From Spirochaetales bacterium (GTDB lineage: Bacteria > Spirochaetota > Spirochaetia > Sphaerochaetales > Sphaerochaetaceae): a stretch of 33,509 nucleotides of DNA. Location: contig JAAYIV010000057.1 of assembly GCA_012523305.1 (NCBI GenBank), positions 1 through 33,509 of the forward strand, in the 5' to 3' direction. The notes below the pieces were generated by a model, which did no database searches, was not told the DNA's origin, and worked only from the letters and a program-made list of their open reading frames with translations. Positions 5,601 to 23,842 of this stretch are shown here, piece by piece (the stretch's first letter is position 1; every line of letters starts with the position of its first letter). Position numbers and translations under genes: made by a program.

Positions 5601-7223
5601 ATTTGTCACCTGAGCGAATATTTGCTTGAAATATGAAAAAAGTAGATGACTCTTATCTGAAAGCACTGCCAAGCCGGTATCATTTCCCATTGACCCGATA
5701 GCTTCCTGTCCTTGGCTCGCCATCGGAGTTAAAATCACCTTTAAATCTTCATCGGTGTATCCGAATAATATGTGTTTCTCTAACAACTCCTGATGATCTA
5801 TCGCAGGAACTTGTGACGGATTAAACAACCCTCTTAATTCGATTCGACTATCTTTTATCCATCTCCTATACGGATATTGGCGAGATAATTTTGCTTTGAT
5901 TACGTTGTCGGGGATGATGCAATGTTGCTGTAAATCCACAAGGAACATCTTTCCGGGGTAAAGACGTCCTTTTGATATGATATTACTTTCAGGAACATCC
6001 AACACCCCTGTTTCAGAAGCCAGGACAATCAAACCGTCTCTAGTAATCGTATAACGAGCCGGACGCAATCCGTTACGATCCAAAGTTGCTCCGAGATATC
6101 TTCCGTCTGTAAAGACAACTGCTGCCGGACCATCCCACGGTTCCATGATCGGCGAATGATATTCATAGAAAGCTCGTTTATCGGCACTCATCTGGATTTC
6201 GGGCGAATAAGCTTCGGGAATCATCATCGTCATGACATGCGGAATGCTACGGCCGGCTGTTACGAACAACTCAAGGACATTATCGAACATCGATGAATCA
6301 CTTCCGCTCTCATCGATGACCGGTATTACTTTTTCAAGATCCTTACCCAAAACACGCGAAGTCATAAATCCTTCTCGGTTTTTTTGACGGTGTATGTTTG
6401 CCTTCAGTGTATTGATTTCTCCATTGTGAGCCATGAATCTGAATGGCTGGGCAAGTTTCCACTGCGGGAGCGTATTAGTGCTGAAACGTGAATGAACAAT
6501 ACAAAAGGAACTCTTGAACAATTCATCATTCAAATCAATGAAGTATCGGGAGACTTGATCTTGGGTGAGCATTCCTTTGTACACAATCACAGTATTTGAA
6601 AGACTGCAAATGTAAAATTGATCGAGTGCGTAGTCAGCTGCTGCGACAGTCTTTTCGATGGTCCTTCTGAGGACATACAATTTTTGTTGGAGATGTTGGT
6701 CTTCGTTTTCATTCCACGTGATGAAGGCTTGCATTATCGCAGGTTCCGTCGAGCGGGCAAAGGCGCCGAGAACTTCTTCGTCGACAGGGACCTTTCTCCA
6801 ACCAAGTACCGAAAATCCTTGTTCATTACATGTTTTTTCGACAATCGAGATACATTGTTCTCTCAGATTATCGGATTTCGGAAGGAAGAACATACCGATG
6901 GCATAAGAGGCGACATCTGATAACGGAATATGTGAAACACGGTTGCAAAAGAATTCGATTGGAATTTGCACCATGACTCCCGAACCATCGCCGGTTTCTT
7001 TGTCACCGCCTATGGCTCCCCTGTGTTGCATTCGCTGCAATACATGCAAGCCGTTGGCGATGGTTTCATAACGTGGTCTTCCATCAAGGTGGGCTACAAA
7101 CCCAACACCGCACGAATCATGCTCAAATTCCTGACGATACAGCCCATATCTACCGTTCTGTACTAATTGTTCATATTGATTAAGATAATTGTTTACCTCA
7201 TTTGAAGCTTGTTTCTCTTGCAT
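2628..7223 (-). CDS. gltB: Glutamate synthase large subunit
   Basis: At 1531 residues this is a full-length GOGAT alpha subunit. It takes the amide nitrogen of glutamine and forms two glutamates with 2-oxoglutarate. The N-terminal nucleophile of the class II amidotransferase domain is C38 (FEHDSCGVGFVAHLDG), so a 37-residue leader should be removed. The central and FMN-binding domains follow (GEGGEDPKRSSP; AKPGEGGQLPGNKV; SGQNGGTGAAPL). The [3Fe-4S] cysteines lie near residues 1138-1152 (C-x5-C-x4-C in MVRKCHLNMCPFGVATQ). The C-terminal glycine-rich GXGXG beta-helix domain runs from about 1270 to 1480. AAGGA before ATG 7223 serves as ribosome site. It lies 16 bases after glnN and overlaps gltD by 8 bases. 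No missing key residue was noticed. Confidence 0.97.
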   Translation of the reverse strand: MQEKQASNEVNNYLNQYEQLVQNGRYGLYRQEFEHDSCGVGFVAHLDGRPRYETIANGLHVLQRMQHRGAIGGDKETGDGSGVMVQIPIEFFCNRVSHIPLSDVASYAIGMFFLPKSDNLREQCISIVEKTCNEQGFSVLGWRKVPVDEEVLGAFARSTEPAIMQAFITWNENEDQHLQQKLYVLRRTIEKTVAAADYALDQFYICSLSNTVIVYKGMLTQDQVSRYFIDLNDELFKSSFCIVHSRFSTNTLPQWKLAQPFRFMAHNGEINTLKANIHRQKNREGFMTSRVLGKDLEKVIPVIDESGSDSSMFDNVLELFVTAGRSIPHVMTMMIPEAYSPEIQMSADKRAFYEYHSPIMEPWDGPAAVVFTDGRYLGATLDRNGLRPARYTITRDGLIVLASETGVLDVPESNIISKGRLYPGKMFLVDLQQHCIIPDNVIKAKLSRQYPYRRWIKDSRIELRGLFNPSQVPAIDHQELLEKHILFGYTDEDLKVILTPMASQGQEAIGSMGNDTGLAVLSDKSHLLFSYFKQIFAQVTNPPIDPLREQLMMSLESFIENASNPLDIDERQYRSLKLYHPILSSRDMVRIRTNPHEDLHPADIDITFDPEDGKDALERAMRRICIEVETLASQGHSMMILTDTHAKRGRAPIPSLLAVSGVHQYMMERNMRSNIGIIAETGEVREVFHFALLVAYGCDAICPYIAFSTIRQLSEEGKLGTLSAETAADNYVNAIKKGLLKTFSRMGISTLHSYFDIRSFEALGLGNPLIEQYFKGTVSRIGGIGFKELTWEIMQRYNQAYPAHRQMPKLRQAGGFYRYRRDGVPHYWSFQAISLLQQATKTEDYAIFKNFTSHMDGSYRTIGEIRGFLDFKETVAIPIEEVEPIETIMRRFASAAMSIGSISKEAHETVAIAMNRIGAKSNSGEGGEDPKRSSPLDNGDSMRSRIKQIASGRFGVTTEYVMSADELQIKMAQGAKPGEGGQLPGNKVTDYIASIRHTVPGVTLISPPPHHDIYSIEDLAQLIYDLKQVNSEAQISVKLVSEPGVGTIASGVVKAKADKILISGQNGGTGAAPLTAIRHVGLPWELGLAETQQSLFINNLRQQVIVQVDGHLKTGRDLAIATLLGAEEYCFGTSLLITLGCMMVRKCHLNMCPFGVATQHPDLRSHFHGKADYIVTFLRFLATEFREYMARLGFRTVEEMVGRSDMLKSTVPTDSIKGRTITLDALIDFPRRHDRKLMHAQKINPTLPTSEFDKRLQAFLTEEFWKFPYPVSLEFPIANTDRTVGGSLSGRIIKQFGSKGLADNTIQVTLHGSAGQSFGAFLAPGLFLRLIGEANDYLGKAMSGGRIAVVQAPETRFRSDRNIICGNVVLYGATAGEVFINGMAGERFAVRNSGAMAVVEGVGDHGCEYMTGGIVAVLGQTGKNFAAGMSGGIAYVYDPSELFDTRCNLDTVELEGVWDIDDQTRLKQLIELHAKYTKSKIAMAILEDWEAKYPQFVKVVPIEYKKVLERMKQNEYRDEETLSVTEEVYHG

Positions 7224-7239
7224 AGGATTCCTTTCACTT

Positions 7240-9363
7240 TTATAACCTGAACAGCATGTCTTCGTATGTCGGAAACGGCCAATATGATCTGACGGTCAAC
7301 TTCTCCAATTCATCACCATCTAATCGAAGATCTTTCATCACAGGGACTATTTTTGTCCTAAAGAATCTTGCAGCAGCCAATACCCCTTTATCCAATTCAT
7401 TCGCTTCACTTAATAGCGACTCGAGTAGGTTTGCATCAACAATCGCCTTGTCGATGCATTCAGTGAGCATCCTTGAAATTACCTTAAGTTGTTTTGATTC
7501 GAGACCATTGGCTTTCTGCAATTGCACAGAAGATAGGATTTCAATGAGATATCGATTTGAAGCACCTATGATGTTGTTTTTTATCATTTCAATCATCAGG
7601 CTTGCTTCGATGTTGATTTGCTTGCAATAAGCATCGAGATATATTTCCTGCCGCGATCGTAATTCTGAAAAAGAAAATATCCGATGCTTTTGCAGCATCT
7701 CGATATATTTGGAATCGGTAAGGTGTGAAAGGGCTTCTACAGTACAATCCAGATTCTCAAGTCCTCTTTTTTCAGCTTCCCGAACCCATTCCTCGCAATA
7801 TCCATTGCCGTTGAAAATGATACGTTTATGATCTCGGTAGAACTCTTTGATAATTGATCTGACTTCTGCCATGACGTCATCACACGTATCAAGACGATCA
7901 GCGATTGTGCAGAGGACATCAGCCACCGCGGCATTTAACATGGTGTTTGGTCCTGCTAAAGATTGCGAAGAACCAACCATTCTGAATTCAAATTTATTTC
8001 CTGTAAATGCAAAAGGCGAAGTACGGTTACGATCTATAGCATCCTTTGGGAAGTCTGGTATGGTTGAAAGTCCTATTTCAATCAGGCGTCCGTTCTGTTT
8101 CACCAGAGGACGTTCTTCAGTAATGCAATCAAGGATCTCGGTAAGTTGATCACCAAGGAAAATCGATACGATTGCCGGGGGTGCCTCATGGGCTCCCAAA
8201 CGGTAATCATTTCCCGCAGTTGCTGTTGATATCCTCAACAGTGTGGCATATTCATCGACTGCCGAAATAATTCCTGTCAGGAATAATAAGAACTGAGCAT
8301 TTTCTTCAGGACTGTCTCCCGGGCTGAGCAGATTCTGTCCATCGTCGGTAGCAAGTGACCAGTTGTTGTGCTTACCCGATCCATTTACCTGCGCAAAAGG
8401 TTTTTCGTGCAAGAGAGCCACCATATGATGGTGCTTGGCAACGGTCTTGATAACTTCCATGAGCAATTGGTTGGTATCAGTTGAAATATTGGCTGAATCA
8501 TATACTGTGGCTATTTCGAATTGATTGGGAGCAACTTCATTGTGCTGGGTTTTTGCAGAAATTCCAAGTTTCCATAGTTGAAGGTTCAATTCCGCCATGA
8601 ACAGTGCGACCCGTTCTTTTATAGCGCCGAAATAATGGTCGGCCATTTCCTGTCCTTTTGCTCCCAGAGTGCCAAATACAGTACGTCCGCATAGGCGCAA
8701 ATCGGGTCTTTTTTCAAACAAAGCTTCATCTATCAAAAAATATTCTTGCTCAGGCCCAACATTTGGGAATACTCGTTTGGAAGTGGTATTACCTAATGCC
8801 CGCAATACTCGAATTGCTTGCGTGTCGATGGCAGCCATCGATCGTAAAAGTGGAACTTTCTTATCGAGTGCTTCTCCGTGGTATGAAACGAATGCTGTTG
8901 GGATAGCAAGGATTTTAACACCATTGGCATCCTTTATCACTGCTGGGGAACTTGTATCCCACGCGGTGTAACCCCGGGCTTCAAAGGTGGTACGAAGTCC
9001 TCCGTTGGGAAAAGATGAGGCATCCGGTTCTCCTTGGATCAGCTCCTTCCCATTAAATTCGACAAGAATTTTCCCGTCATGGCTTGGTGATATGAACGAA
9101 TCCTGTTTTTCAGCGGTGAGACCGGTTAGCGGTTGGAACCAATGAGTGAAATGCGTTGCTCCTTTACTGATTGCCCAATCTTTCATTTCCTTGGCAATCA
9201 CCTCCGCGGAAGGAAGGGATAGTGAAAGCTTTCCCTCCTGGACTGCCTTGAGTTCCTCATACACTTTTTTTGGAAGGTGCTCCTTCATCGTTGCGTCACT
9301 GAAACAATTGCTTCCATAAATTTCAGCCATTGAAGTCTTCGAAAAATCAACAGAATTAGTCAT
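7240..9363 (-). CDS. glnN: Glutamine synthetase type III
   Basis: This 707-residue protein is far longer than type I enzymes (about 470) and matches the type III (GlnN) class of Bacteroides, cyanobacteria and some spirochaetes. It condenses ammonium and glutamate with ATP. Metal and substrate motifs are visible: GPEQEYF at 203-209, KTQHNEVAPNQ at 271-281 and NGSGKHNNW at 327-335. The later GAHEAPPAIVSIF and FTGNKFEFRMVG segments are typical of this class. The start at 9363 has AAGGAG about 10 bases before it. It sits between glnK (63 bases upstream) and gltB (16 bases downstream) as the third gene of the operon, which pairs it with GOGAT in one transcript. No type I adenylylation loop was recognised, as expected for type III. 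Confidence 0.96.
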   Translation of the reverse strand: MTNSVDFSKTSMAEIYGSNCFSDATMKEHLPKKVYEELKAVQEGKLSLSLPSAEVIAKEMKDWAISKGATHFTHWFQPLTGLTAEKQDSFISPSHDGKILVEFNGKELIQGEPDASSFPNGGLRTTFEARGYTAWDTSSPAVIKDANGVKILAIPTAFVSYHGEALDKKVPLLRSMAAIDTQAIRVLRALGNTTSKRVFPNVGPEQEYFLIDEALFEKRPDLRLCGRTVFGTLGAKGQEMADHYFGAIKERVALFMAELNLQLWKLGISAKTQHNEVAPNQFEIATVYDSANISTDTNQLLMEVIKTVAKHHHMVALLHEKPFAQVNGSGKHNNWSLATDDGQNLLSPGDSPEENAQFLLFLTGIISAVDEYATLLRISTATAGNDYRLGAHEAPPAIVSIFLGDQLTEILDCITEERPLVKQNGRLIEIGLSTIPDFPKDAIDRNRTSPFAFTGNKFEFRMVGSSQSLAGPNTMLNAAVADVLCTIADRLDTCDDVMAEVRSIIKEFYRDHKRIIFNGNGYCEEWVREAEKRGLENLDCTVEALSHLTDSKYIEMLQKHRIFSFSELRSRQEIYLDAYCKQINIEASLMIEMIKNNIIGASNRYLIEILSSVQLQKANGLESKQLKVISRMLTECIDKAIVDANLLESLLSEANELDKGVLAAARFFRTKIVPVMKDLRLDGDELEKLTVRSYWPFPTYEDMLFRL

Positions 9364-9426
9364 ATAAGCTTTACTCCTTGTAAATCGCCGGGTGTCATCA
9401 TCAACTTGGTATCTTCTTGAAAGGGT

Positions 9427-9768
9427 TTATCCAATTGCTTGCGGACCGTTTTCCCTATTCCTGATACGAATGCATTGTTCTATTGGAAGGACAAAAATTT
9501 TGCCGTCACCAATCACGCTCGTTTGTGCACCGTCAAGGATTGCTTCAATTGTAGGTTCAACGAATGCATCATTTACCGCTATTTCAATCCTGACTTTTTT
9601 CAATAGATTGACTTCGATATCTACACCCCGGTATACTTTTTTGTATCCCTTCTGTTGCCCGCATCCGAGCGAATTGGATACCGATATCTTGAAAATCTCT
9701 CGTCGGTAAAGTTCTTGTTTTACATCATTCAATTTTTCTGGTTGGATATACGCTACTATCAGTTTCAT
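9427..9768 (-). CDS. glnK: P-II nitrogen regulatory protein, no Tyr51
   Basis: This 113-residue trimeric signal protein binds ATP/ADP and 2-oxoglutarate and normally gates the Amt channel. The fold signatures are present: T-loop GQQKGYKKVYRGVDI, the B-loop TSVIGDGKIFVLP, and the C-terminal RIRNRENG arginines that contact ATP. Aligning it by hand to E. coli GlnB without gaps puts Ile at position 51, where GlnB has the uridylylated tyrosine; Tyr46 and Arg47 are kept. It therefore probably acts by ligand binding alone or by another modification. It follows amt by 23 bases, the usual amt-glnK pairing, with GAAGG before the start. The symbol glnK is given on this linkage. Confidence 0.94.
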   Translation of the reverse strand: MKLIVAYIQPEKLNDVKQELYRREIFKISVSNSLGCGQQKGYKKVYRGVDIEVNLLKKVRIEIAVNDAFVEPTIEAILDGAQTSVIGDGKIFVLPIEQCIRIRNRENGPQAIG

Positions 9769-9791
9769 ATGATTACCTTCACATCATGGAT

Positions 9792-11114
9792 TCACATATT
9801 CGTAAAAATCTGGAATCCGGAATAGGATTCAGTACTGTGTTCTGCAAGATCGAGTCCTGCCAATTCTTCATGTTTGCTCACCCGCAGACCATGGGACTTC
9901 TTAATGATTGCAAATAGTATTCCCGTTGTTGCCATCACCCAAACACCTACAGTGACTACCCCTAAAAATTGAATTCCGAGTTGCTTGAATCCACCTCCGA
10001 AAAAGAGGCCTTTTATGTGCGTGGTGTTACCAAATAATCCAACCGCAAGAGTCCCCCATACCCCACAGATTCCATGTACGCTTATTGCTCCGACGGGATC
10101 GTCGATATGTAAGATTTTATCGATAAACTCAATTGAGAACACGACGATGAATCCAGAAATCAAACCGATTATTATCGCACTTAATGGAGAAACGACGGCC
10201 GTGGAGGCGGTTATACCGACCAATCCGGCTAAAGCTCCGTTCAACGACATGCTCACATCGGGGTTTTTAAATTTTATCCATGATACGATCATTGCACCTA
10301 TAGCACCGGCAGAAGCGCTGAGTGTTGTAGTCGTTGCCACCAAGGCCATTGTCGGATCGGTACCGCTGAGAGTGGATCCCGGGTTGAACCCGTACCAGCC
10401 GAACCAGAGAATGAACACGCCAAGACACGCAAGTGGCAAGTTGTGGCCCAATATTGGTTTTGAGGTTACGACTGATCCCTGAGATACATATTTCCCAATT
10501 CTTGGTCCTAATGCCATAGTCCCTACCAAAGAAGCCCAACCTCCGACTGAATGAACGACGGTAGAACCGGCGAAGTCAAAAAATCCTATACGCGAAAGCC
10601 ATCCTCCTCCCCATATCCAATGCCCGGATATCGGGTATATGAGTGCTGAAATGAATATGCTGTAGATGAGGTAAGCTGAAAATTTAGTCCGTTCTGCCAT
10701 CGCACCAGAAACGATAGTTGCCGCCGTAGCGGCAAATACTACCTGAAACATCCAGTTCCTGAATAACACCATGTCATTTCCACCGATGAAAAATTGTGAG
10801 AACCCAAATAATCCGTTCACTGATTCCCCATACATCAATGCCCATCCGAACATCCAAAACATAAGGGACCCTGCACAGAAATCCATCAAATTCTTCATGA
10901 TGATGTTTCCCGCATTTTTTGCACGGGTTAACCCGATTTCCACCATAGCGAAACCTGCCTGCATGAAAAAGACGAGTGACCCGGCGACGAGTAACCAAAT
11001 CATGTCGAACGAGTCTTGGTGTAAGGTGATCGCACTGGAAATTTCATCAGCACCTATGCCGGATAGGGTACAGGCCAGTAGTATCAGTATCATGACTACG
11101 ATACGGCTTTTCAT
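9792..11114 (-). CDS. amt: Ammonium transporter
   Basis: This 440-residue membrane protein has an N-terminal signal-like segment (residues about 1-22) followed by the eleven-helix Amt/Rh fold. The conserved pore histidines are H188 (STVVHSVGGW) and H347 (AISVHGICGVWG), and the signature GHWIWGGGWL precedes the first. The cytosolic tail carries the typical LRVSKHEELAGLDLAEHS sequence that couples subunits and contacts GlnK. GGAGG lies 8 bases before ATG 11114. It is the first gene of the amt-glnK-glnN-gltB-gltD operon and stands just after a sigma-54 promoter, so it should be induced under nitrogen limitation. Confidence 0.97.
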   Translation of the reverse strand: MKSRIVVMILILLACTLSGIGADEISSAITLHQDSFDMIWLLVAGSLVFFMQAGFAMVEIGLTRAKNAGNIIMKNLMDFCAGSLMFWMFGWALMYGESVNGLFGFSQFFIGGNDMVLFRNWMFQVVFAATAATIVSGAMAERTKFSAYLIYSIFISALIYPISGHWIWGGGWLSRIGFFDFAGSTVVHSVGGWASLVGTMALGPRIGKYVSQGSVVTSKPILGHNLPLACLGVFILWFGWYGFNPGSTLSGTDPTMALVATTTTLSASAGAIGAMIVSWIKFKNPDVSMSLNGALAGLVGITASTAVVSPLSAIIIGLISGFIVVFSIEFIDKILHIDDPVGAISVHGICGVWGTLAVGLFGNTTHIKGLFFGGGFKQLGIQFLGVVTVGVWVMATTGILFAIIKKSHGLRVSKHEELAGLDLAEHSTESYSGFQIFTNM

Positions 11115-11342: not shown

Positions 11343-12872
11343 TCATCGGTATCTGCTCGAATCAAAGCAGTATTTCTCAATTCGCAATCCCATGATCCTT
11401 TCGGTGATACCTAGTTGTTGGGCTGCTTTCGATTGGTTGCCCCGTGTCTGTTTCAATGCTTCGGCGATCAGTTCGTATTCCAAAGCCTCCAGTGATTGTC
11501 GTAATGTTGTTTTGCTTTGCGTGTCGGAAGATTCGGCAGATTGCAGGCTGGGTGGTAACAAATGGCCATGGATTACATCATCCTGGCTTATGATGACAGA
11601 ACGTTCGATGCAATTCTCCAGCTCCCTTACGTTGCCCGGCCAATGATACATCATAAGCAGATCGATTGCTGTACTGCTTATCCGTTTCACGTTTCGATTG
11701 TTCTTACGGTTATATTTTTCGATGAAGTGATCGCATAACAACAGAATATCAGATTTTCGTTCTCGTAACGGTGGAATATGAAGGGGAAAGACATTCAGCC
11801 GATAATAGAGGTCTTCCCTGAAGGTTCCTTTACGCAGTTCTTCTTCAAGATTGCGATTGGTAGCTGCGATAATTCGCACATCAACTTTAATCGTACGTGT
11901 GCCTCCGACACGTTCGAACTCGTGTTCTTGCAACACCCTAAGTAGTTTTACCTGCATTCCTGATGAAAGTTCACCGATTTCATCGAGAAACAACGTTCCT
12001 TGATCTGCTAGTTCAAATCGTCCCTTATGTAAGGCATAGGCTCCGCTGAAAGCTCCTTTTTCATGTCCGAATAGTTCGCTTTCAATAATGTTTGCGGGTA
12101 GGGCGGCACAATTGACCTTCACAAACGGTCTTTCGGATCGATAACTATTATCATGTATTTCTTGTGCTACCAATTCTTTCCCGGTTCCACTTTCGCCCCT
12201 GATTAATACGGTGGCATCACTTTTGCTCACTTTTGCGATGAGATCGAATAACTCTTTCATCGAATGTGATCTTCCGATAATTCGCTCCGGAGTAAAACAT
12301 TCTTTCAATTCAGCCTTCAGCCTGCGATTCTCATCAAGAAGTTGTTCCTTCTCTTCACGTAATTCTTGACGAATGCGAACAGCCCTGGCGACCATCGATG
12401 AGATAACGGACAAGAACTTAAGATACCTATCAAAATCATCATCATTGCAATCCATGAATGAGATGTTAAGAGTGCCGATAATTTCATGGCCGCTATGGAT
12501 GGGAATGCTGAAAAATGAGATTCGATGTCTTTCTTTAATCAAATCCGTTTCCGCACCGGTCTTATTCATATAACGACTGTCTTTTGAAATGTCCGGGATT
12601 ACGAGATGGTGACCGCTCTCGACAACAATTCCAGTGATCCCTTCCCCTATCCGATATCTTCCTTTCTGTTGTTGGATATCAGTTAATCCATACGCTGATT
12701 CAATAAGTATTTCTTTTGTATTTCGATTCAGGAGAGTGATCGCACCCCGGACCATAGGAGTATGGCTCGAGATTGCCAGAAGGATCGGGGTGAGGATGCT
12801 TTTCAGGTCATCCGTTTCATCCAATATCCGACTGATATCGTATAGAACCTGTAGCTCTGCAGCTGGTTTCAT
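11343..12872 (-). CDS. NifA/AnfA-like sigma-54-dependent activator
   Basis: This 509-residue enhancer-binding protein has three parts. A GAF sensor domain spans about 1-165. The AAA+ sigma-54 interaction domain spans about 195-430, with Walker A GESGTGKE (226-233), the sigma-54-contacting loop as GAFSGA (273-278) instead of GAFTGA, Walker [11 protein letters not shown] (292-301) and the R-finger region [15 protein letters not shown] Fis-type helix-turn-helix ends it (about 470-503, [21 protein letters not shown]), a sequence typical of NifA/AnfA proteins. No nitrogenase genes are in the window. It lies directly upstream of the sigma-54 promoter of amt and is probably its activator, with the GAF domain sensing nitrogen or carbon state directly or through GlnK. 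The Thr to Ser change in the loop is conservative. Confidence 0.93.
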
Positions 12873-14822: not shown

Positions 14823-14851
14823 TGATAGTATCGGATATCATTGGAGATATC
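14823..14851 (+). promoter_or_regulatory. Possible extended -10 and dyad before sensor kinase
   Basis: TGATAGTAT (14823-14831) fits an extended -10 box (TGN plus TAGTAT) without a good -35. Right after it GATATC (14834-14839) is repeated at 14846-14851; as each is self-complementary this gives GATATC-N6-GATATC, a possible operator at the start of the transcript. Both are short and could be chance. Confidence 0.3.
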
Positions 14852-14873: not shown

Positions 14874-17207
14874 ATGGAAAAATCTTCTCGATGTATTGGG
14901 ATTTTTACCGCGTCTCTCGACGATGGGTACCAATCGACCATCTGGCGGGCGATTGAACAAGAAGCCCATAATCGGAATTTTAGTTCGATTTCGTTCTTAG
15001 GTTCCCGACTAGGATCTCCCATAGCGTCCGAAGCCTCATCAAATATGGCATATCATTTGGCCAGTGATCAAAATATTGATGGGTTAATCATTATTTCTTC
15101 ATCACTGGCAACATTCTTCTCTTCAAAGGACCTCAAGGAGTTCTTTACTCCATGGGAATCGCTGCCGAAAGTTTCTGTCGGAATGCATATTCCCGGGATG
15201 TCTGATATTACTGTGGAGGGTTCTCGAGGTATCTCAGAATTGGTCGAACATCTCATAAATGAGCATGGGCGGCGCAACTTCGCGCTGATAAGCGGTCCGG
15301 CGGGGCATGAGGAGGTAATCAGTCGTCAACTTGCAGTATTGGACACGCTCAAATCGAGAAATCTTCAATTAGCGCCTGAACTTTCGTTCTTCGGTACCTT
15401 CACCCAGGATTCCGGTATTAAAGCGGTAGATCAGTTTATCGAATCTGGTCTACCGTTTGATGCGATTGTCTGTCATAACGACAGGATGGCCCAAGGTGCG
15501 TTGGAACAATTGGCGTACAGGAATATCAGTGTGCCTGATGATGTTTCAGTCATTGGGTTCGACGGGTTGGAAGTCGCTCGTTATTCCCAGCCTCCTCTGA
15601 CGACGGTGGTTCAGCCGCTGAGGGATCTTGGAGCTCATGCCGTTGCTTTGCTCGATCGTATCATGCAAGGCGAGAAGGAAGAGCATATTGTTCTTTCATG
15701 TTCTACCATTATCCGCGAATCGTGCGGATGTGGTCCGCATTTCAGATATCAGCCTGAGCTGACAGAATTCCCCAGATATGTCAGTGCTTCAGAACGCCAG
15801 GCGATTTTTGATCTGATGATCCTGGTCCGCAAAGGCAATTACGAAGAGATGATCATGCATCTTAACAAGGCGATCGATAAAACCATTGCCGAAAGCGGAA
15901 CGGTAGATAGGTGGAATGAATATCTATCGATTATTGAGAATAATTGTATTGAAAGTCCCGTAGCAAATGGGGCTTCCCTGTCGAAGCTCATGGGAGCTGC
16001 CAGGGCTTTTACCGGTGAGAAGATCGGCCGATACCAAGCTGCGAAAAGAATTATGACTGAAGCATCGTTTGAGACACTGCGACAAGTAAGTGCAATGTTG
16101 GCGGGAACATTCGAACTCAACGAAATGCTTTCCAACCTAAAGAAGGGTCTGGAACTCTTTGGCATTGATAGAGGATACTTGGTAGGATTTACTAAAAAAC
16201 CGGGAAGAGCTCGTCTATTGATGAGTATGAACAGAAAGAACTCAGAAACCCCACAATTGCCCGTTGAATTCAATCATGCTGAATTGCTGCCTGCAGAAGA
16301 AGGCCAGGTATGGAAACGTGGTCAATGGATACTGATGCCATTGGTGTATATTTCCGAGCCACTGGGGTATCTGTTGGTTCCAATAGGTATAGTCATTCCT
16401 GCATTGTATGATGTGCTGCAGGAACAGATTTCGAGTAACTTAAAAGGGACGTTGTTACTTGAACAAATCAAATCACATGAACAAATATTGGCAGAAAAGG
16501 TATCATTGAGAACGAAAGATCTTATCAGGACAAACCGCGAGTTATCGAATGAAATCAAACGCCGAACCGAACTTGAGCATGAAGTAATGGAAATTTCATC
16601 CAAAACGATGGAAAGGATAGGCCAGGAACTTCATGACGATCTATGCCAACATCTGCTTGGAATCTCGTTATTGGCTTCATCGGTACGCAAGATTGCGAAG
16701 GATAACCATCAGGTTGACGTTGAAATGTTAGAACAAATCAGTCATCTTCTCAGTGAATCGATCAGCAAGATTAAAACAATATCAAGAGGGTTGCTGCCAA
16801 TAGAGATGGAAGCCCATACGTTCCTCGAACGTATCGAAGCTTTGGTCGCGGACACAAGAAGATATGTTAAAGTTGATGTGAACATCGAAGCTGACCCCTC
16901 TTTTGAAATAGCTGATACGGACCGTGCTTTACAAGTGTTTCGAATTATTCAAGAGGCATTGAACAATGCGGTCAAACATTCAAGGGCAAGATTAGTGACG
17001 ATTTCATTAAAGACGATAGTTGAAGAAAAAGAACGTGTGTGTTACATGGCAAGTGTTGTTGATGACGGGATCGGGCTTCCCGAACGAATACGTGATGGAG
17101 CGTTGGGATTACGGATTATGCGCAACCGGGCTAGCATAGCTCAAGCAGAATTATCAGTAGATTCATCACGACATGGAACGACCGTAAAAATCGTGATTTG
17201 GGAGTGA
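14874..17207 (+). CDS. Cytosolic LacI-sensor histidine kinase
   Basis: This 777-residue fusion has no signal peptide or membrane helix. Residues about 5-290 are a LacI/GalR-type sugar-binding domain without its DNA-binding helix-turn-helix (FDAIVCHNDRMAQGA; DDVSVIGFDGLEVARYSQPPLTTV; ending in RESCGCG, as in other signalling fusions of this domain). A helical linker, a GAF-like domain (about 405-530) and a coiled coil follow. The kinase core is HisKA_3 with the phospho-accepting H587 in GQELHDDLCQHLLG, then an HATPase with N-box N697/N698 (EALNNAVKHS), DDGIGLP and GALGLRIM. ATG 14874 is chosen because CGGGAG ends 9 bases before it; a TTG at 14841 has none. The partner regulator starts 4 bases after the stop. 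It probably binds an imported sugar in the cytosol and adjusts phosphorylation of that regulator. Confidence 0.93.
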   Translation: MEKSSRCIGIFTASLDDGYQSTIWRAIEQEAHNRNFSSISFLGSRLGSPIASEASSNMAYHLASDQNIDGLIIISSSLATFFSSKDLKEFFTPWESLPKVSVGMHIPGMSDITVEGSRGISELVEHLINEHGRRNFALISGPAGHEEVISRQLAVLDTLKSRNLQLAPELSFFGTFTQDSGIKAVDQFIESGLPFDAIVCHNDRMAQGALEQLAYRNISVPDDVSVIGFDGLEVARYSQPPLTTVVQPLRDLGAHAVALLDRIMQGEKEEHIVLSCSTIIRESCGCGPHFRYQPELTEFPRYVSASERQAIFDLMILVRKGNYEEMIMHLNKAIDKTIAESGTVDRWNEYLSIIENNCIESPVANGASLSKLMGAARAFTGEKIGRYQAAKRIMTEASFETLRQVSAMLAGTFELNEMLSNLKKGLELFGIDRGYLVGFTKKPGRARLLMSMNRKNSETPQLPVEFNHAELLPAEEGQVWKRGQWILMPLVYISEPLGYLLVPIGIVIPALYDVLQEQISSNLKGTLLLEQIKSHEQILAEKVSLRTKDLIRTNRELSNEIKRRTELEHEVMEISSKTMERIGQELHDDLCQHLLGISLLASSVRKIAKDNHQVDVEMLEQISHLLSESISKIKTISRGLLPIEMEAHTFLERIEALVADTRRYVKVDVNIEADPSFEIADTDRALQVFRIIQEALNNAVKHSRARLVTISLKTIVEEKERVCYMASVVDDGIGLPERIRDGALGLRIMRNRASIAQAELSVDSSRHGTTVKIVIWE

Positions 17208-17211
17208 TGGG

Positions 17212-17868
17212 ATGAAACAACAATACGAGTTTGTCGTGGTCGATGATCATCCGTTGTTCAGGCAAGGCTTGGTCAGCGTTATCGAGAACATACGATCCTA
17301 TCATGTGATCGGTGAAGCCTCCACGATTTCCGAAGCGCTGCAAGCCATAGAAGCCCGTCAACCACATGTACTGTTAGTCGACATCGCCTTACATCAAGAA
17401 AATGGTCTTGAATTGGTTAAAACAGTCAAATCATTGTATCCGGATATTTTGCAGGTTGTCGTATCAATGTACGATGAGGTAATCTATGCTTCTACCGCAC
17501 TCAAGTCCGGAGCCAAAGGATATGTGATGAAACAAGAGGCTGCAGAAACTCTGCTTGAAGCGATAGAAACGGTCATACAAGGCAAGATTTATGTTTCCAT
17601 GGCTATGCATGAGCGAATGTTGGATTCGATATTTGCGAATAAGACCAAAGTTGAATCTGATCCGGTCGTGCTGCTAAGTGTGAGGGAGCAGGAAGTGTTT
17701 CGTTTGATCGGACAGGGCTTTGGTATTTCTGAAATTGCCGAAGCATTACATTTATCTTTCAAGACCATCAATGTCTATCGTGATAATATCAGACGCAAAT
17801 TATCAATCGGCGATGCAGGTGGATTGAGAAAATTTGCCATCAAATGGATGAAAAGCAAAGAAATGTGA
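17212..17868 (+). CDS. NarL/LuxR-family response regulator
   Basis: This 218-residue protein has a receiver domain (1-125) with the acidic pair D11/D12, the phospho-acceptor D57 (VLLVDIAL), S85 and K107. A LuxR-type helix-turn-helix lies at 153-202 (LSVREQEVFRLIGQGFGISEIAEALHLSFKTINVYRDNIRRKL). This output class is the usual partner of HisKA_3 kinases. The gene starts 4 bases after the kinase stop, with GGGAG overlapping the kinase end, so the two are surely co-transcribed. The sugar ABC transporter genes begin 196 bases downstream and are the likely targets. All key receiver residues are present, though the usual MP after the aspartate is replaced by LH. Confidence 0.96.
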   Translation: MKQQYEFVVVDDHPLFRQGLVSVIENIRSYHVIGEASTISEALQAIEARQPHVLLVDIALHQENGLELVKTVKSLYPDILQVVVSMYDEVIYASTALKSGAKGYVMKQEAAETLLEAIETVIQGKIYVSMAMHERMLDSIFANKTKVESDPVVLLSVREQEVFRLIGQGFGISEIAEALHLSFKTINVYRDNIRRKLSIGDAGGLRKFAIKWMKSKEM

Positions 17869-17874
17869 GAGTGC

Positions 17875-17994
17875 ATAGGATAAATGTCCTATATGAATTC
17901 AAGCCATATGCCTACTACCGCCGTGAACTCTCAGATTATAGGGTAAGATTCAGGGGTAGGATGCCGGTTAGACCTGCCGATTACTGTTGTAATC
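17875..17994 (+). promoter_or_regulatory. Regulatory region before binding-protein gene with two dyads
   Basis: The 196-base gap between the response regulator and the binding-protein gene holds two perfect inverted repeats: ATAGGA-N6-TCCTAT (17875-17892) and GATTAC-N4-GTAATC (17979-17994). A direct repeat TACATG-N3-TACATG follows at about 18003-18017. No convincing -35/-10 pair or terminator was seen. LuxR-type regulators bind short dyads, so these are candidate sites for the regulator encoded just upstream; the first could equally be a weak hairpin after the regulator gene. Confidence 0.4.
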
Positions 17995-18064
17995 CGGAAC
18001 ATTACATGGTCGTACATGCCGGATGAACCAAATTCACGGCATGATAAAGGAAGGAGGTTTGAAT

Positions 18065-19414
18065 ATGGCTCGAAAAGTGGGATTTGTTATTGGTCTCATC
18101 TTACTGGTGTGCTTGACACCGATGTTTGCCACTGGAGCAGCTGAAACTCCAGTTACAGGAGCAGGACCGAAAGTCATTAATCTGTGGAGCTTCACGGACG
18201 AAGTCCCGAAAATGTTGGAAAAATACAAAGAACTGCATCCGGAATTCGATTATGAAATCAAGACAACCATAATCGCAACAACCGATGGAGCGTACCAACC
18301 AGCTCTCGATCAGGCTTTGATTGCAGGAGGAGCAGATGCTCCGGACATTTATTGTGCGGAGAGTGCATTCGTACTGAAGTATACACAAGGCGATGCTGCC
18401 CAATATGCTGCCACATACAAAGATTTGGGTATCGATGTTGACACATTGTTGAAGCAAGCAGATATCGCTCAATACACAATCGATATCGGTTCCAATGAAC
18501 GCGGATTGGTCGGTCTTGGTTATCAGGCAACCGGCGGAGCATTCATTTATCGCCGCTCTATCGCCAAGGCTGTATGGGGAACCGACGATCCGGCAGTAAT
18601 CAAGACCAAAGTCGGTCCGGGGTGGGACAAATTCTTTGAAGCTGCTGCTGCGTTGAAGGCAAAAGGCTATGGAATCCTATCCGGTGACGGAGACCTTTGG
18701 CACGCTGTGGAAGGTGCTTCTGAAAAAGGTTGGGTAGTCGACGGGAAATTGTATTTGGATCCGGATCGGGAAGCTTTCATCGATATGTCAATGGAACTGA
18801 TGCAAAAGGGTTATCATAACGATACCCGTGACTGGACAGATGCATGGTTCGCCGATATGAAAGACGCCAATCCTAAACAGGTCTTTGGATTCTTTGGCCC
18901 TGCATGGTTGATCAACTATGTAATGGCTGGTAACTCAGGTGGAACGAAACCCGGTGAAGGAACTTATGGTGACTGGGCGGTATGTGAACCTCCCGTTGGC
19001 TTCTTCTGGGGCGGAACTTGGCTTTTGGCTAACAAAGACAGCAAAGTCAAAGATGCGGTCGCTGATATTATTGAATGGATAACATTGGATAGTTCTGACA
19101 CTGGTTTGCAATACTTCTGGGCGAATGGGACCCTTGCAGGTCCTGGCGGAACCAAGGATACAGTGGCCTCAGGGACAGTCATGAAAAAATCAGATGGATC
19201 TTTGCCCTTCCTGGGCGGTCAGAACATGTTTGACGTATTCGTACCGGCTGGTCAGTTTGCAACTGGTAAGAACAAACACCAATATGATGAGACCATCAAT
19301 ACTTACTGGCGTGATCAGGTTCGTGAGTACACCGGTGGGAAAAAATCAAGAGCGCAGACGATTGCCGACTTCAAACAGATGGTAGCTGACAACCTTGCGA
19401 TTCCTGTGAAATAA
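18065..19414 (+). CDS. Sugar ABC transporter substrate-binding protein
   Basis: This 449-residue protein is a family 1 extracellular solute-binding protein (MalE/UgpB type). An N-terminal signal peptide is clear: MARK, a hydrophobic stretch VGFVIGLILLVCL, then MFATGAAETP, with cleavage likely around residue 26. There is no lipobox cysteine at the cleavage site. The mature part begins with the family pattern KVINLWSFTDEVPKMLEKY, and tryptophan-rich segments such as GFFWGGTWLL and WLINYVMAG suit sugar binding. ATG 18065 has a perfect AGGAGG 7 bases before it; an in-frame start at 18023 does not. It is followed by a strong hairpin and two permease genes. The sugar cannot be named; the GH3 enzyme nearby suggests a beta-linked oligosaccharide or xyloside. 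Confidence 0.94.
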   Translation: MARKVGFVIGLILLVCLTPMFATGAAETPVTGAGPKVINLWSFTDEVPKMLEKYKELHPEFDYEIKTTIIATTDGAYQPALDQALIAGGADAPDIYCAESAFVLKYTQGDAAQYAATYKDLGIDVDTLLKQADIAQYTIDIGSNERGLVGLGYQATGGAFIYRRSIAKAVWGTDDPAVIKTKVGPGWDKFFEAAAALKAKGYGILSGDGDLWHAVEGASEKGWVVDGKLYLDPDREAFIDMSMELMQKGYHNDTRDWTDAWFADMKDANPKQVFGFFGPAWLINYVMAGNSGGTKPGEGTYGDWAVCEPPVGFFWGGTWLLANKDSKVKDAVADIIEWITLDSSDTGLQYFWANGTLAGPGGTKDTVASGTVMKKSDGSLPFLGGQNMFDVFVPAGQFATGKNKHQYDETINTYWRDQVREYTGGKKSRAQTIADFKQMVADNLAIPVK

Positions 19415-19435
19415 CATTTTTGATTTCATAATTCG

Positions 19436-19459
19436 TACGGGCGGTCAAAGCCGCCCGTA
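19436..19459 (+). terminator. GC-rich hairpin after the binding-protein gene
   Basis: TACGGGCGG and CCGCCCGTA form a perfect 9-base stem around a 6-base loop, 22 bases after the stop codon. No T-run follows (ATAATGTC), so full termination is unlikely. In sugar operons such a hairpin commonly protects the binding-protein mRNA or lowers read-through, so that the binding protein is made in excess over the permeases. Confidence 0.65.
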
Positions 19460-19475
19460 TAATGTCTGTTCAATC

Positions 19476-19507
19476 TAATTCTTGTGGATTGGAGGCGTTA
19501 AGAATTA
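19476..19507 (+). repeat. AT-rich inverted repeat before permease gene
   Basis: TAATTCTT (19476-19483) pairs perfectly with AAGAATTA (19500-19507) around a 16-base loop. The loop contains GGAGG (19491-19495), a ribosome-site-like word with no start codon behind it. It follows the GC-rich hairpin by 16 bases. Its role is unknown; it may add to mRNA structure between the binding protein and permease genes. Confidence 0.4.
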
Positions 19508-19568
19508 TTATAAAACAGTTGGTAGATGTTAAGGGTATATACTTTATGGAATCTGGGGGTGAATGATA

Positions 19569-20540
19569 ATGCGACGAAAGACAATCAGTTATGCAAAATA
19601 CGGATACATATTTTCCATACCATTCGTACTAACGTTTTTGATTTTTTCGCTGTATCCCCTGTTATATACCGTTCTAATTGGTTTTACCAATCTGAGAGGG
19701 TTGGGTTTCACGGACATCAAGGTGCTTGAACAACCCTTTGAGAATTATAAATTAATTCTTAACAATCCTTCATTTCAAAAATCATTGTTCAACACACTAT
19801 ATATTTGGGTAGTTGGCTTTATACCACAAATTAGTTTGGCGTTACTATTAACTGCCTGGTTTACCAACCGGAATTTCAAAGTAAAAGGCCAAGGGGCATT
19901 CAAAGTTCTCATCTATATGCCGAATATTATCACTGCTGCGACAATCGCCATTCTTTTCCATACATTGTTTGGCTATCCGAAGGGTCCGATCAATGATTTA
20001 TTCTTGAAGATGGGATGGATTGACAGTCCGTTGAATTTCCATATCCAGACATGGACAGCCAGAGGCGTGGTTTCATTCATCCAGTTTTGGACGTGGTATG
20101 GCAATACGATGATTGTATTAATAGCGGGCGTGCTGGGCATCAATCCAACGCTATTCGAAGCAGCAGAGATCGATGGAGCTTCTCCAAGGCAGATTTTCTT
20201 TAAAATTACATTGCCTCGATTGAAAACAATTATCCTTTATACGCTGGTAACCAGCATGGTCGGTGGCATGCAAGTCTTCGATATTCCGAAACTGTTCTTG
20301 CTCGGAGGACCGGATAATGCCACCCTCACGTTGAACGTATTTATCTATAATCAAGCTTTTAGTGGAACATACCTCTATAACAGGGCTTCTGCCGCAAGCA
20401 TGATTGCTTTTCTCATTATCGTGATTCTCTCAGCTGTAATGTTCAGGATACTACGCGATAAGGATGCTGTGTTACGACGTAAATGGGAACGAGAGGAACG
20501 CCGCAGACAACGTGTCGAGGCGAGGGAGGTGAACGCATGA
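19569..20540 (+). CDS. Sugar ABC transporter permease (MalF/UgpA type)
   Basis: This 323-residue integral membrane protein has about six helices, with the first at residues about 10-35 (YGYIFSIPFVLTFLIFSLYPLLYTVLIG). The cytosolic EAA loop that docks to the ATPase reads EAAEIDGASPRQIFFKITLPRL. ATG 19569 (MRRKTISYAKYGY) is preferred over 19563 because GGGGGTGA ends 6 bases before it. The tail is strongly charged (KWEREERRRQRVEAREV). It overlaps the second permease gene by ATGA. It forms the channel with that protein; the ATP-hydrolysing subunit is not encoded here. Confidence 0.95.
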   Translation: MRRKTISYAKYGYIFSIPFVLTFLIFSLYPLLYTVLIGFTNLRGLGFTDIKVLEQPFENYKLILNNPSFQKSLFNTLYIWVVGFIPQISLALLLTAWFTNRNFKVKGQGAFKVLIYMPNIITAATIAILFHTLFGYPKGPINDLFLKMGWIDSPLNFHIQTWTARGVVSFIQFWTWYGNTMIVLIAGVLGINPTLFEAAEIDGASPRQIFFKITLPRLKTIILYTLVTSMVGGMQVFDIPKLFLLGGPDNATLTLNVFIYNQAFSGTYLYNRASAASMIAFLIIVILSAVMFRILRDKDAVLRRKWEREERRRQRVEAREVNA

Positions 20541-21385
20541 ACAATAGTATTCGCACTTCCCGTACCATTTCGAAGACAATCGTTTATGTCGTATGTATTT
20601 TCTTATCGCTTCTCAGTCTTTTCCCATTCTGGATGATGTTCATGAATGCAACCCGAAGTACGTTTGAGATCCAACAGAATTCGATCGGGTTGTTGCCTTC
20701 TAAATTTTTATTGAGCAATTGGAAAGTCCTGGAAGGCAAAAGTTTCAATCCAATGATCGGATTCATGAATTCAATGATAATCTCAGCTGGTGCTACCATC
20801 GGAGCTGTATATTTCTCATCTTTAACCGCCTATGCCTTAGTTGCCTATACTTGGAAGCTTCGGCAACCGTTCTTTACATTTATCATGGCGGTATTGATGC
20901 TTCCTGCCCAAGTATACAGCATCGGATTCTATCAGTTTATGTATCAAATACATTGGACCAATAATCTCCTGCCTTTGATCTTACCCTCGATAGCAGCCCC
21001 GGCGATGGTGTTCTTCATGCGCCAGTACCTATTGGCTACGTTGCCTCTGGATATAGTCGACTCAGCACGAATCGATGGATCAAAGGAATTCTACACCTTC
21101 AATCGGATAGTATTGCCGATTATGAAACCAGCGATGGCAACGCAAGCAATTTTTACGTTTGTTATCAAGTGGAATGAATTCTTCTTGCCTCTGATCCTAC
21201 TTACGAAAAAAGAACGGTATACGATGCCAATCATGGTGAGTCTGTTGCGCGGTGATATATACAAAACGGAATATGGATCGGTGTATCTTGGACTGTCTCT
21301 CACGGTATTGCCGTTGTTCGTTGTCTATTTCTTGCTTGCCAAGCATATTATCGCAGGAGTGGCCTTGGGAGCTTTAAAAGAATAA
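20537..21385 (+). CDS. Sugar ABC transporter permease (MalG/UgpE type)
   Basis: This 282-residue permease has about six membrane helices and the EAA-type loop VDSARIDGSKEFYTFNRIVLPIMKP. The start ATG at 20537 overlaps the TGA of the first permease in the form ATGA, and GGGAGGTGA lies just before it, so translation is coupled. A longer in-frame start at 20483 lies inside the upstream gene and is rejected. Together with the first permease and the binding protein it makes a carbohydrate uptake type-1 (CUT1) importer. The GH3 gene begins 111 bases downstream on the same strand. Confidence 0.95.
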   Translation: MNNSIRTSRTISKTIVYVVCIFLSLLSLFPFWMMFMNATRSTFEIQQNSIGLLPSKFLLSNWKVLEGKSFNPMIGFMNSMIISAGATIGAVYFSSLTAYALVAYTWKLRQPFFTFIMAVLMLPAQVYSIGFYQFMYQIHWTNNLLPLILPSIAAPAMVFFMRQYLLATLPLDIVDSARIDGSKEFYTFNRIVLPIMKPAMATQAIFTFVIKWNEFFLPLILLTKKERYTMPIMVSLLRGDIYKTEYGSVYLGLSLTVLPLFVVYFLLAKHIIAGVALGALKE

Positions 21386-21496
21386 TAGAGCTTTAGCAGT
21401 AAAAATTTTTTGCTGATAACCGGTTAAGTCAGCTGGTGGGATTAGCTATATGTGTTCACATGCGAACCTGCTGTGCGGGTAGGAAAGGAAGGTCAT

Positions 21497-23842
21497 ATGT
21501 ATACGGACCGAAGACGGGCGCTGGATGTTTTGGGTGCCATGACCTTGAAAGAGAAAATTGCTCAATTGATTTCAATATGGATAGAAATACGAAATGATGG
21601 CACCTTTGGCTTGCGAGAGGCTTTTATAAAAGAGAAAAAGGAAGCTCATTCGCACACAGAAGTCCTAAAGGACGGCATAGGACAACTTACCCGCCCGTTT
21701 GGAACCATGGCCAACGGAATTATCGAACAAGCAAAGGCAATCAATACGATACAGAAGTTTTTGATTGAACAAACACGATTGAAAATTCCCGCAATGTTTC
21801 ATGAAGAATGCCTTACCGGCGTAATGGTCAAAGGAGCTACGATCTTCCCCAGTGCGTTGAACTACGGATCGACATGGGATACCGAATTGATCCAGAGGAT
21901 CGCCAAGACAATCGGATCAGAAATGCGATCGTTGGGAAGTCACCAAGGATTGGCACCCGTACTCGATGTAGCCAGAGATGCCCGTTGGGGACGCCTTGAA
22001 GAAACTTTTGGCGAGGATCCCTATCTCACCGGATGTATGGGTATTTCATATGTTCAAGGATTACAGGGGAAAAAGCGATCGCCGATTGCCACATTAAAAC
22101 ATTTTGTCGGGCATTCGGGCAGTGAAGGAGCTCGAAACCATGCACCTGTCCATGTGGGTGAGCGTGAGCTCAGGAATATGTATGCATTGCCGTTTGAAAT
22201 GGTAATCAAAGAAGCCAGACCTGGCAGTGTGATGCCAGCTTACCATGATATTGACGGTATTCCTTGCACCGCTAATTATTCGTTGGTCACATCACTGTTA
22301 AAACATAACTGGAAATTCAACGGTCTGGTAGTCGCTGATTATGAAGCTGTCAGTCAACTTTCTACCGAACATCATGTGGCGGCAGACATGGCTGAAGGGT
22401 CCGCACTGGCTCTCAAGGCAGGACTTGATCTGGAACTACCTGGCTTTACCGCGTTCAGGAACAATCTTGAACGTGCGCTGGACCGTGGACTGATCGACAT
22501 CGGTACAATCGATGCCGCAGTACTGAGAGTCTTGAGAGAAAAGTTCCGTCAAGGTGTATTTGATCACCCTTACATCGATGAACAATCGATTCGCCTTGCA
22601 TCTGATGCGAGTCATGCACTGGCAATCGAAGCTGCTGAAAAATCGTTGGTATTACTGAAAAACAAGAACTTGTTGCCTTTGAAAAAACAACAGCATATCG
22701 CAGTTATAGGACCCCTTGCTGATCACCCGTATGCGATGTACGGCGGATACGCTCCTCCGGTTCATCTGCAAGGACTGCATACGCCCGTAGAGACTGTTCC
22801 CAAACGGGCCAAAACGATTCGAAAAGCAATCGAGGCATTAAGTGGTCTTAATGTGGTGTATGAACCCGGTTGTTTGCTCTATGAAGGGTTCTTTGAGCGA
22901 TCCTTATTCTTCCCCGGGGATGTGAAGGCTGAAGATATCACATCGACGAAGCAGCTCAGTACGGACACAAGTTATATCAAACGAGCTGTGACTGTAGCAG
23001 AAAAAGCTGATACCGTCATTTTGGTAGTCGGAGATTTGGCTGGATTATTTCAACAAGGAACTGTCGGTGAAGGTTCTGATACAGAGACACTCCGTCTACC
23101 TGGAATTCAAGAACAGTTGATGGAAGCGGTCTTGGCGACCGGAAAGCCGACTGTTGTCGTTCTTGTCAGCGGCCGACCGTATTCGATTGAAGCTGCAAAT
23201 AAGAAGGCGGCGGCGATCTTGGCTTCATGGTTGCCGGGAGAAGGTGGCGGAGAAGCTATCGCACGAGTACTATTCGGTTTGACCAATCCGAGTGGCAAGA
23301 CATGCCTGTCGTTCCCTATCGCTGCGGGTGCGATGCCGTATGCCTATAATCATTCACAAAAAGCAGGTGGAATGCCGAAGCAAAAATCATTTGGAGCTAT
23401 CTACCCGTTTGGCTTCGGATTGAGTTATACTCAATTTGCCTATAGCGGAGGAATGATTGAAAAAACAACCGTACCGACTGACGCACATGTTGTTATTCAT
23501 ATCGATATAATGAATACGGGACTGTATGAAGGTGATGAAATAGTTCAAGTATATGTGCGTGATGTTCAAGCCAGTATTGTTCGCCCAGTGAAAGAATTAA
23601 AAGGGTTTTCACGAGTAACCCTGGCATCTGGCGAGACCAAACATGTCACATTCGACATGCCTACGGACGTGCTTTCTTTCGTTACTGACGGTAAGAGGAT
23701 AGTGGAACCGGGAGTATTTGATGTCATGATCGGTTCTTCTTCCCAAGATATCCTTTGGTCAGGCCAGTTCACCCTCAGTGGTGCAACAAGAGTCTTGGAC
23801 AGGCATTGGAGATGCAGGACTTCGGTGACCGTGGATTCTTGA
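21497..23842 (+). CDS. GH3 family beta-glycosidase (glucosidase/xylosidase)
   Basis: This 781-residue enzyme has the three-part GH3 layout. The N-terminal barrel contains ATLKHFVGH and the catalytic nucleophile D281 in GLVVADYEAV. The alpha/beta sandwich holds GEGSDTETLRLPGIQ, the region that supplies the acid/base. A C-terminal fibronectin type III-like domain follows (YEGDEIVQVYVRDVQASIVRPVKELKGF). No signal peptide is seen, so it works in the cytosol on sugar brought in by the neighbouring importer. The segment SGSEGARNHAPVHVGERELRNMY resembles beta-xylosidase/beta-glucosidase GH3 members; specificity is open. ATG 21497 is chosen for AAGGAAGG before it; an upstream GTG at 21452 lacks a ribosome site. 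It is probably in the same regulon as the transporter. Confidence 0.93.
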   Translation: MYTDRRRALDVLGAMTLKEKIAQLISIWIEIRNDGTFGLREAFIKEKKEAHSHTEVLKDGIGQLTRPFGTMANGIIEQAKAINTIQKFLIEQTRLKIPAMFHEECLTGVMVKGATIFPSALNYGSTWDTELIQRIAKTIGSEMRSLGSHQGLAPVLDVARDARWGRLEETFGEDPYLTGCMGISYVQGLQGKKRSPIATLKHFVGHSGSEGARNHAPVHVGERELRNMYALPFEMVIKEARPGSVMPAYHDIDGIPCTANYSLVTSLLKHNWKFNGLVVADYEAVSQLSTEHHVAADMAEGSALALKAGLDLELPGFTAFRNNLERALDRGLIDIGTIDAAVLRVLREKFRQGVFDHPYIDEQSIRLASDASHALAIEAAEKSLVLLKNKNLLPLKKQQHIAVIGPLADHPYAMYGGYAPPVHLQGLHTPVETVPKRAKTIRKAIEALSGLNVVYEPGCLLYEGFFERSLFFPGDVKAEDITSTKQLSTDTSYIKRAVTVAEKADTVILVVGDLAGLFQQGTVGEGSDTETLRLPGIQEQLMEAVLATGKPTVVVLVSGRPYSIEAANKKAAAILASWLPGEGGGEAIARVLFGLTNPSGKTCLSFPIAAGAMPYAYNHSQKAGGMPKQKSFGAIYPFGFGLSYTQFAYSGGMIEKTTVPTDAHVVIHIDIMNTGLYEGDEIVQVYVRDVQASIVRPVKELKGFSRVTLASGETKHVTFDMPTDVLSFVTDGKRIVEPGVFDVMIGSSSQDILWSGQFTLSGATRVLDRHWRCRTSVTVDS

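Follow-up and report, generated by a model that had tools for sequence, protein, structure and literature searches.

A soluble LacI-type sensor kinase and its predicted operator at a sugar importer operon of Sphaerochaeta-type spirochaetes

Textbook two-component systems for sugars sense outwards. The sensors of NarX/NarL and UhpB/UhpA are membrane proteins, sensing outside the cell or through a partner, and in Geobacillus a two-component system with a membrane sensor and an AraC-type regulator (XynDC) lies beside an ATPase-less CUT1 importer for xylo-oligosaccharides (XynEFG). The name XynEFG occurs in PMC4194401. The spirochaete locus described here resembles the Geobacillus system in that a two-component system adjoins a CUT1 importer that lacks an ATPase of its own, but its sensor is cytosolic and of the LacI type, and its regulator is of the NarL type. 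With NarX/NarL and UhpB/UhpA it shares the HisKA_3 kinase and NarL/FixJ regulator families and a predicted target of the NarL kind (7-2-7), whereas its sensor is soluble and carries the domain of a sugar repressor. This domain has the ligand-binding fold of the LacI/GalR repressors (RbsR, CelR, LacI, PurR), with the pocket positions kept, but the helix-turn-helix (HTH) head of the repressors is missing and the output is a kinase. The locus probably encodes a soluble, cytosolic two-component system that senses a xylan-derived sugar and activates an importer/GH3 operon through a palindrome. A literature search, with most subscription journals outside its reach, returned no description of LacI-type kinases, and the terms 'fusion' and 'two-component' are absent from a review of the LacI regulons (PMC4052901).

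The window, i.e. the whole stretch of 33,509 nucleotides that was analysed, is contig C161 of a 2.56 Mb genome in 187 contigs, the nearest named relatives of which are Sphaerochaeta-type spirochaetes. Kinase, NarL-type regulator, solute-binding protein (SBP), permease 1, permease 2 and GH3 enzyme follow one another on the plus strand, and the coordinates given in an earlier note on this DNA required only slight refinement:

14874..17207, plus strand: cytosolic sensor histidine kinase, 777 aa (Pfam, NCBIfam, AlphaFold2, Foldseek, alignment)
17212..17868, plus strand: NarL/FixJ-type response regulator with REC and GerE HTH domains, 218 aa (Pfam, alignment)
17876..17891, plus strand: predicted regulator site TAGGATAAATGTCCTA, a 7-2-7 inverted repeat (conservation of place)
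17899..17918, plus strand: second conserved promoter block, consensus TC.aG.CAaA.gcC.A.T (ungapped conservation, 17 loci)
17939..17944, plus strand: -10-like box TAGGGT, family consensus TAgnaT (constant distance to the palindrome)
18065..19414, plus strand: importer SBP, 449 aa (PDB relative, signal peptide by eye, position)
19563..20540, plus strand: CUT1-type permease 1, UgpA/MalF-like (BPD_transp_1, E = 1.3e-9)
20537..21385, plus strand: CUT1-type permease 2, UgpE-like (BPD_transp_1, E = 5e-15)
21497..23842, plus strand: cytosolic GH3 glycosidase of the beta-xylosidase type, 781 aa (Pfam GH3 N, C and Fn3-like domains; 7zb3)

The architecture, the lack of membrane segments, the fold, the gene order and the operator-like site are direct computational observations. 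Elsewhere in the window, the minus strand carries a group of nitrogen-assimilation genes (2628-11114), for glutamate synthase, an ammonium transporter and a glutamine synthetase of type III, and beside this group lies the gene (11343-12872) for a GAF-containing activator of the sigma-54 type.

The earlier note had described the sensor as a LacI/GalR-type ligand-binding domain without its DNA-binding head, fused through a GAF-like domain to a HisKA_3 kinase with no membrane segment, and every part of this description was borne out. The ATG at 14874 has GGGAG directly upstream. The true N-terminus was inspected for a membrane or secretion signal, and the alternative TTG at 14841, which lacks such a ribosome-site-like stretch, adds no hydrophobic segment. 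Pfam recognizes Peripla_BP_3 (residues 124-284, E = 1.3e-30), HisKA_3 (580-642, E = 8e-9) and HATPase_c (E = 1e-8), the last two both above cut-off, but no HTH and, in particular, no LacI HTH (PF00356). In an AlphaFold2 model built from 38 homologues (mean pLDDT 83.6, pTM 0.64), the chain opens with the first strand of the ligand-binding domain. Given this absence of an N-terminal LacI HTH, the kinase is not a LacI transcription factor. The model places the LacI-type domain at about residues 1-284, a helical linker at 305-409, a small alpha/beta, GAF-like domain at 415-503, a long helix running into HisKA_3 at 510-611 and the ATPase domain at 650-776. The phospho-acceptor is H587, which is conserved in the homologue alignment together with N698, D730 and G745. 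Foldseek matches the N-terminal part to LacI-family ligand-binding domains, including those of RbsR with ribose (9ny7, TM-score 0.87 over the target) and CelR with cellobiose (5ysz). The middle domain has no GAF match in Pfam, but a separate model of residues 296-556 finds mainly GAF domains in the PDB and, judged from this modelled fold, the label 'GAF-like' is right. The only hydrophobic peak of the chain (508-526) was considered as a membrane segment and rejected, because the model shows it as a loop and helix start beside a strand and because orthologues, that of locus L033 for example, have polar residues there. Hydropathy and model thus reveal no transmembrane segment or signal peptide in the kinase, and both sensor and kinase must therefore be cytosolic.

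A single-sequence scan of genome collections found no relatives of the kinase. An alignment (profile) scan found 299, and the 80 of these that were kept are nearly all from spirochaetes; in 70 proteins both kinase ends are covered. The kinase is a member of a large and widespread spirochaete family rather than an isolated oddity. One homologue, from genome G036, is split over two frames (L035:15483-17778), through either a mistake in the assembly or a genuine frameshift, and was left out as an intact member. Within the reach of the contigs, 17 Sphaerochaeta-type loci (L048-L063 and L065), among them L055 of the cultured Sphaerochaeta halotolerans, have the genes for kinase, regulator, SBP, permeases and GH3 in this same order, with a single transposase insertion within the conserved block at L049. 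The order also extends to another family within the class, represented by genome G040 (locus L065). In a further genome, again from a different family (G025, locus L033/L077), the kinase and regulator genes are directed towards an inverted operon that encodes another importer and a related GH3. The kinase of genome G022 (L036) has only 33% identity and is accompanied by its own regulator, a GH52 gene and then an importer 75-78% identical to that of the window. This stretch (L036:1-9917) looks as if the regulator had been exchanged, with a near-identical importer and a similar DNA site retained.

More distant pairs of LacI-type kinase and regulator in Treponema apparently share operons with genes of the families GH10, GH67 or GH8: the same-strand gene 18-60 nt after the regulator encodes GH10 at L099 and L117, GH67 at L083, L086, L087 and L097, and GH8 at L093. 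A tally of 82 neighbouring proteins gave 14 GH77, five GH10, four GH67, four SASA esterases, two GH8 and one each of GH39, GH43 and GH3. The GH77 genes beside 14 Treponema pairs, recognized from the tally and from gene length, were considered as a target and dropped, being convergent with the regulator where this was checked. In the tree, the Sphaerochaeta-type branch stands apart from the Treponema-type branch, with context labels taken partly from gene length.

The importer and the enzyme are as the earlier note had them, a CUT1 importer lacking its ATPase and a cytosolic GH3 on the same strand as the kinase. The SBP has a signal peptide by eye and no Pfam match, and its orthologues are 73-89% identical. 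It is followed by the two BPD_transp_1 permeases, the start of the second overlapping the stop of the first (ATGA). There is no ATPase gene in the cluster, and seven TOBE_2 matches, the mark of CUT1-type ATPases, were found elsewhere in the genome; a shared ATPase is common among CUT1 importers. The GH3 has N and C domains and no signal peptide by eye or hydropathy. Its best PDB match is the beta-xylosidase 7zb3 (E = 1.4e-197), which it matches with 662 bits, versus 394 or fewer for any differently named enzyme, and its score of 763 bits against the xylosidase/arabinosidase model NF052329 lies under the cut-off of 1050, yet is the best of all models. The genome also encodes a xylose isomerase, and GH52 enzymes, such as that encoded beside the orthologous importer in L036, are beta-xylosidases. 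Together, the 7zb3 match, the GH52 gene, the xylose isomerase and the Treponema GH10, GH67 and GH8 contexts make a xylo-oligosaccharide more likely as substrate than cellobiose or glucose.

The same circuit might nevertheless import, cleave and sense cello-oligosaccharides, arabino-oligosaccharides or some other beta-glycoside. The sole PDB match of the SBP is the cellobiose-binding protein 8bfy, a distant relative (E = 1.6e-13), GH3 is a polyspecific family in which this enzyme falls below the xylosidase equivalog cut-off, and GH43 and arabinofuranosidase genes lie near L069. Such a substrate seems improbable, given the gap in bit scores that separates 7zb3 from differently named enzymes, the GH52 gene beside the orthologous importer and the xylan enzymes adjoining distant kinase/regulator pairs. 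About equally improbable is a kinase that senses a general carbon or energy metabolite, such as a sugar phosphate, or one that senses mainly through its GAF-like domain, with the LacI-type domain acting only as a modulator. The presence of the additional GAF-like domain is consistent with this, as is the textbook knowledge that the LacI fold also accommodates purines or partners bearing phosphate, as in PurR and CcpA. However, R151, N202 and D230, which we take to be the sugar-contacting Arg, Asn and Asp of LacI and RbsR (an equivalence visible in the alignment), are each conserved in at least 90% of the 38 homologues, in keeping with the earlier note's view that the ligand pocket had been kept. 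The best fold matches include RbsR with ribose and CelR with cellobiose, and the kinases remain linked to glycan genes. A xylan-derived sugar, or a metabolite of it, as ligand of the LacI-type domain is therefore preferred. This ligand may be an oligosaccharide, xylose or a metabolite, and sensing after import, as proposed in the earlier note, would be one possible reading; the note's further proposal that the kinase replaces a repressor is an evolutionary hypothesis.

The regulator, a NarL-type partner on the same strand as foreseen, is encoded 4 nt after the kinase and has REC (E = 2.7e-22) and GerE (E = 2.7e-12) domains, with Asp57 as the receiver aspartate. Alignment of the gaps between regulator and SBP genes revealed a 16-bp palindrome at the SBP promoter, newly found here, with the consensus TAGGACA-NN-TGTCCTA. 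It is present in all 17 testable loci (the window and 16 others), with 12 to 14 of the 14 fixed letters matching. Downstream of it, at constant distance across loci, follow a second block, possibly a weaker regulator site near the -35 region, and the TAgnaT box, a -10-like element from which a transcription start was predicted. In itself a match to the palindrome is unremarkable, since a window this long is expected to contain about 1.1 at three mismatches, and its weight as a candidate operator lies in its conserved place. In the genome of the window, position 17876-17891 is the sole place with at most one mismatch; no wider regulon emerged there, as there is no second site at this stringency and matches with two mismatches are fewer than those of a control pattern. 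The relaxed pattern TAGG..A..T..CCTA has 18 matches in 1.516 Mb of loci, every one at such a promoter, and 16 of these are independent, because L029 and L052, and likewise L033 and L077, are the same contig twice. Thirty palindromes made by rearranging the same letters, with TAGG..A..T..CCTA itself counted in, average 1.8 matches.

In more distant loci (L064, L067 and L036) the site takes variant forms, of the type TAGGTGA-NN-TCACCTA, and in these few cases a changed half-site goes with a changed recognition helix in the regulator. At up to four mismatches, nothing comparable was detected in the stretches examined of L035, L066, L068 and L069, nor near the Treponema pairs examined, around which other 7-2-7 palindromes proved unconvincing. 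At L033/L077 a variant of the site (17159 of L033) lies upstream of the SBP start (17046), ahead of the inverted importer operon. A function that depends on the regulator transcript is thereby ruled out and, with it, a terminator or RNA-hairpin reading. That another regulator binds the palindrome, or that it folds as an RNA hairpin, with the kinase/regulator pair adjoining the importer by chance, is the least likely alternative and quite improbable: palindrome-keeping changes of the half-site would also fit an RNA stem, and in most loci the site is located where the regulator gene ends, but at L033/L077 it is off the regulator transcript, its 2-nt loop without a T-run is ill-suited to a terminator, its 7-2-7 geometry suits NarL-type dimers and it co-occurs with this regulator.

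An inverted repeat of 7-2-7 geometry, which is that of NarL sites, is thus predicted from sequence at the target promoter. Its conserved place at the importer promoter is strong support for the view that the regulator controls the importer, which gives the regulatory loop of the earlier note a candidate DNA site, and it is very probably through this conserved site that the partner regulator switches on the importer and the GH3. For the ligand, the phosphotransfer, the sign of regulation and the substrate, we infer the following course. A xylan-derived sugar, or a metabolite of it, would bind the LacI/RbsR-type domain in the cytosol, and the signal would travel via the GAF-like domain and the long helix to the HisKA_3 kinase, which would phosphorylate the regulator. 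A dimer of the phosphorylated regulator would then bind the palindrome, about 67 bp ahead of the predicted transcription start, and a second dimer would probably, or at least possibly, occupy the weaker site nearer the promoter, at about -44. Activation from about -67 is suggested by the spacing between palindrome and -10-like box, and the regulator could repress instead. Activation would switch on the SBP, the two permeases (served by an ATPase encoded elsewhere) and the cytosolic beta-xylosidase, resulting in a positive feedback loop.

The intracellular sugar pocket of a repressor seems to drive a phosphorelay here, so that the same sensory part would serve one-component and two-component regulators. 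As both the DNA site and the operon are specified and the target is single-copy in the genome, the loop is directly testable. If true, it would be, to our knowledge, the first model of how Sphaerochaeta- and Treponema-type spirochaetes of guts and sediments regulate their uptake of xylan sugars, and it suggests a ready-made module for the design of sugar-responsive kinases.

LacI repressors usually end near the last strand of the ligand-binding domain, whereas here a motif, SCGC (residues 283-286), directly follows that strand. It is present in 66 of the 70 kinases, with TCGC or SCNC in two more, whereas all 32 LacI repressors taken from related genomes lack it at that place. Guesses as to its role include a metal site, a redox switch or a structural turn. 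Other headless LacI fusions have the same N-terminal ligand-binding domain with another output, and those examined from spirochaetes (MCP, AraC and LuxR fusions) share SCGC, or TCGC, at the same place. Whether the LacI ligand-binding domain is a general plug-in cytosolic sugar receptor in spirochaetes, marked by SCGC and wired to kinase, chemoreceptor, AraC or LuxR outputs, with the kinase branch as an undescribed class of intracellular xylan sensors with its own operator, seems to us evenly balanced. One protein (L038:7440-9740, plus strand) combines a headless LacI-type domain, SCGC and an MCPsignal domain, and resembles in its sequence a cytosolic sugar chemoreceptor. Another (L043:7461-9731, plus strand) has a LacI-type domain, PAS and a LuxR-type HTH in a single chain, possibly a one-protein version of the kinase/regulator circuit. 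Further headless LacI-type proteins run off the contig end in the genome of the window (L039:6131-7553, contig C102) and in a congener (L045:8791-10441). On a plasmid of Deinococcus peraridilitoris, a protein with LacI-type, GGDEF and EAL domains (L174:3947-6988), a region of which aligns with the middle part of the kinase, has SCGT in place of SCGC and suggests sugar-linked control of c-di-GMP outside the spirochaetes.
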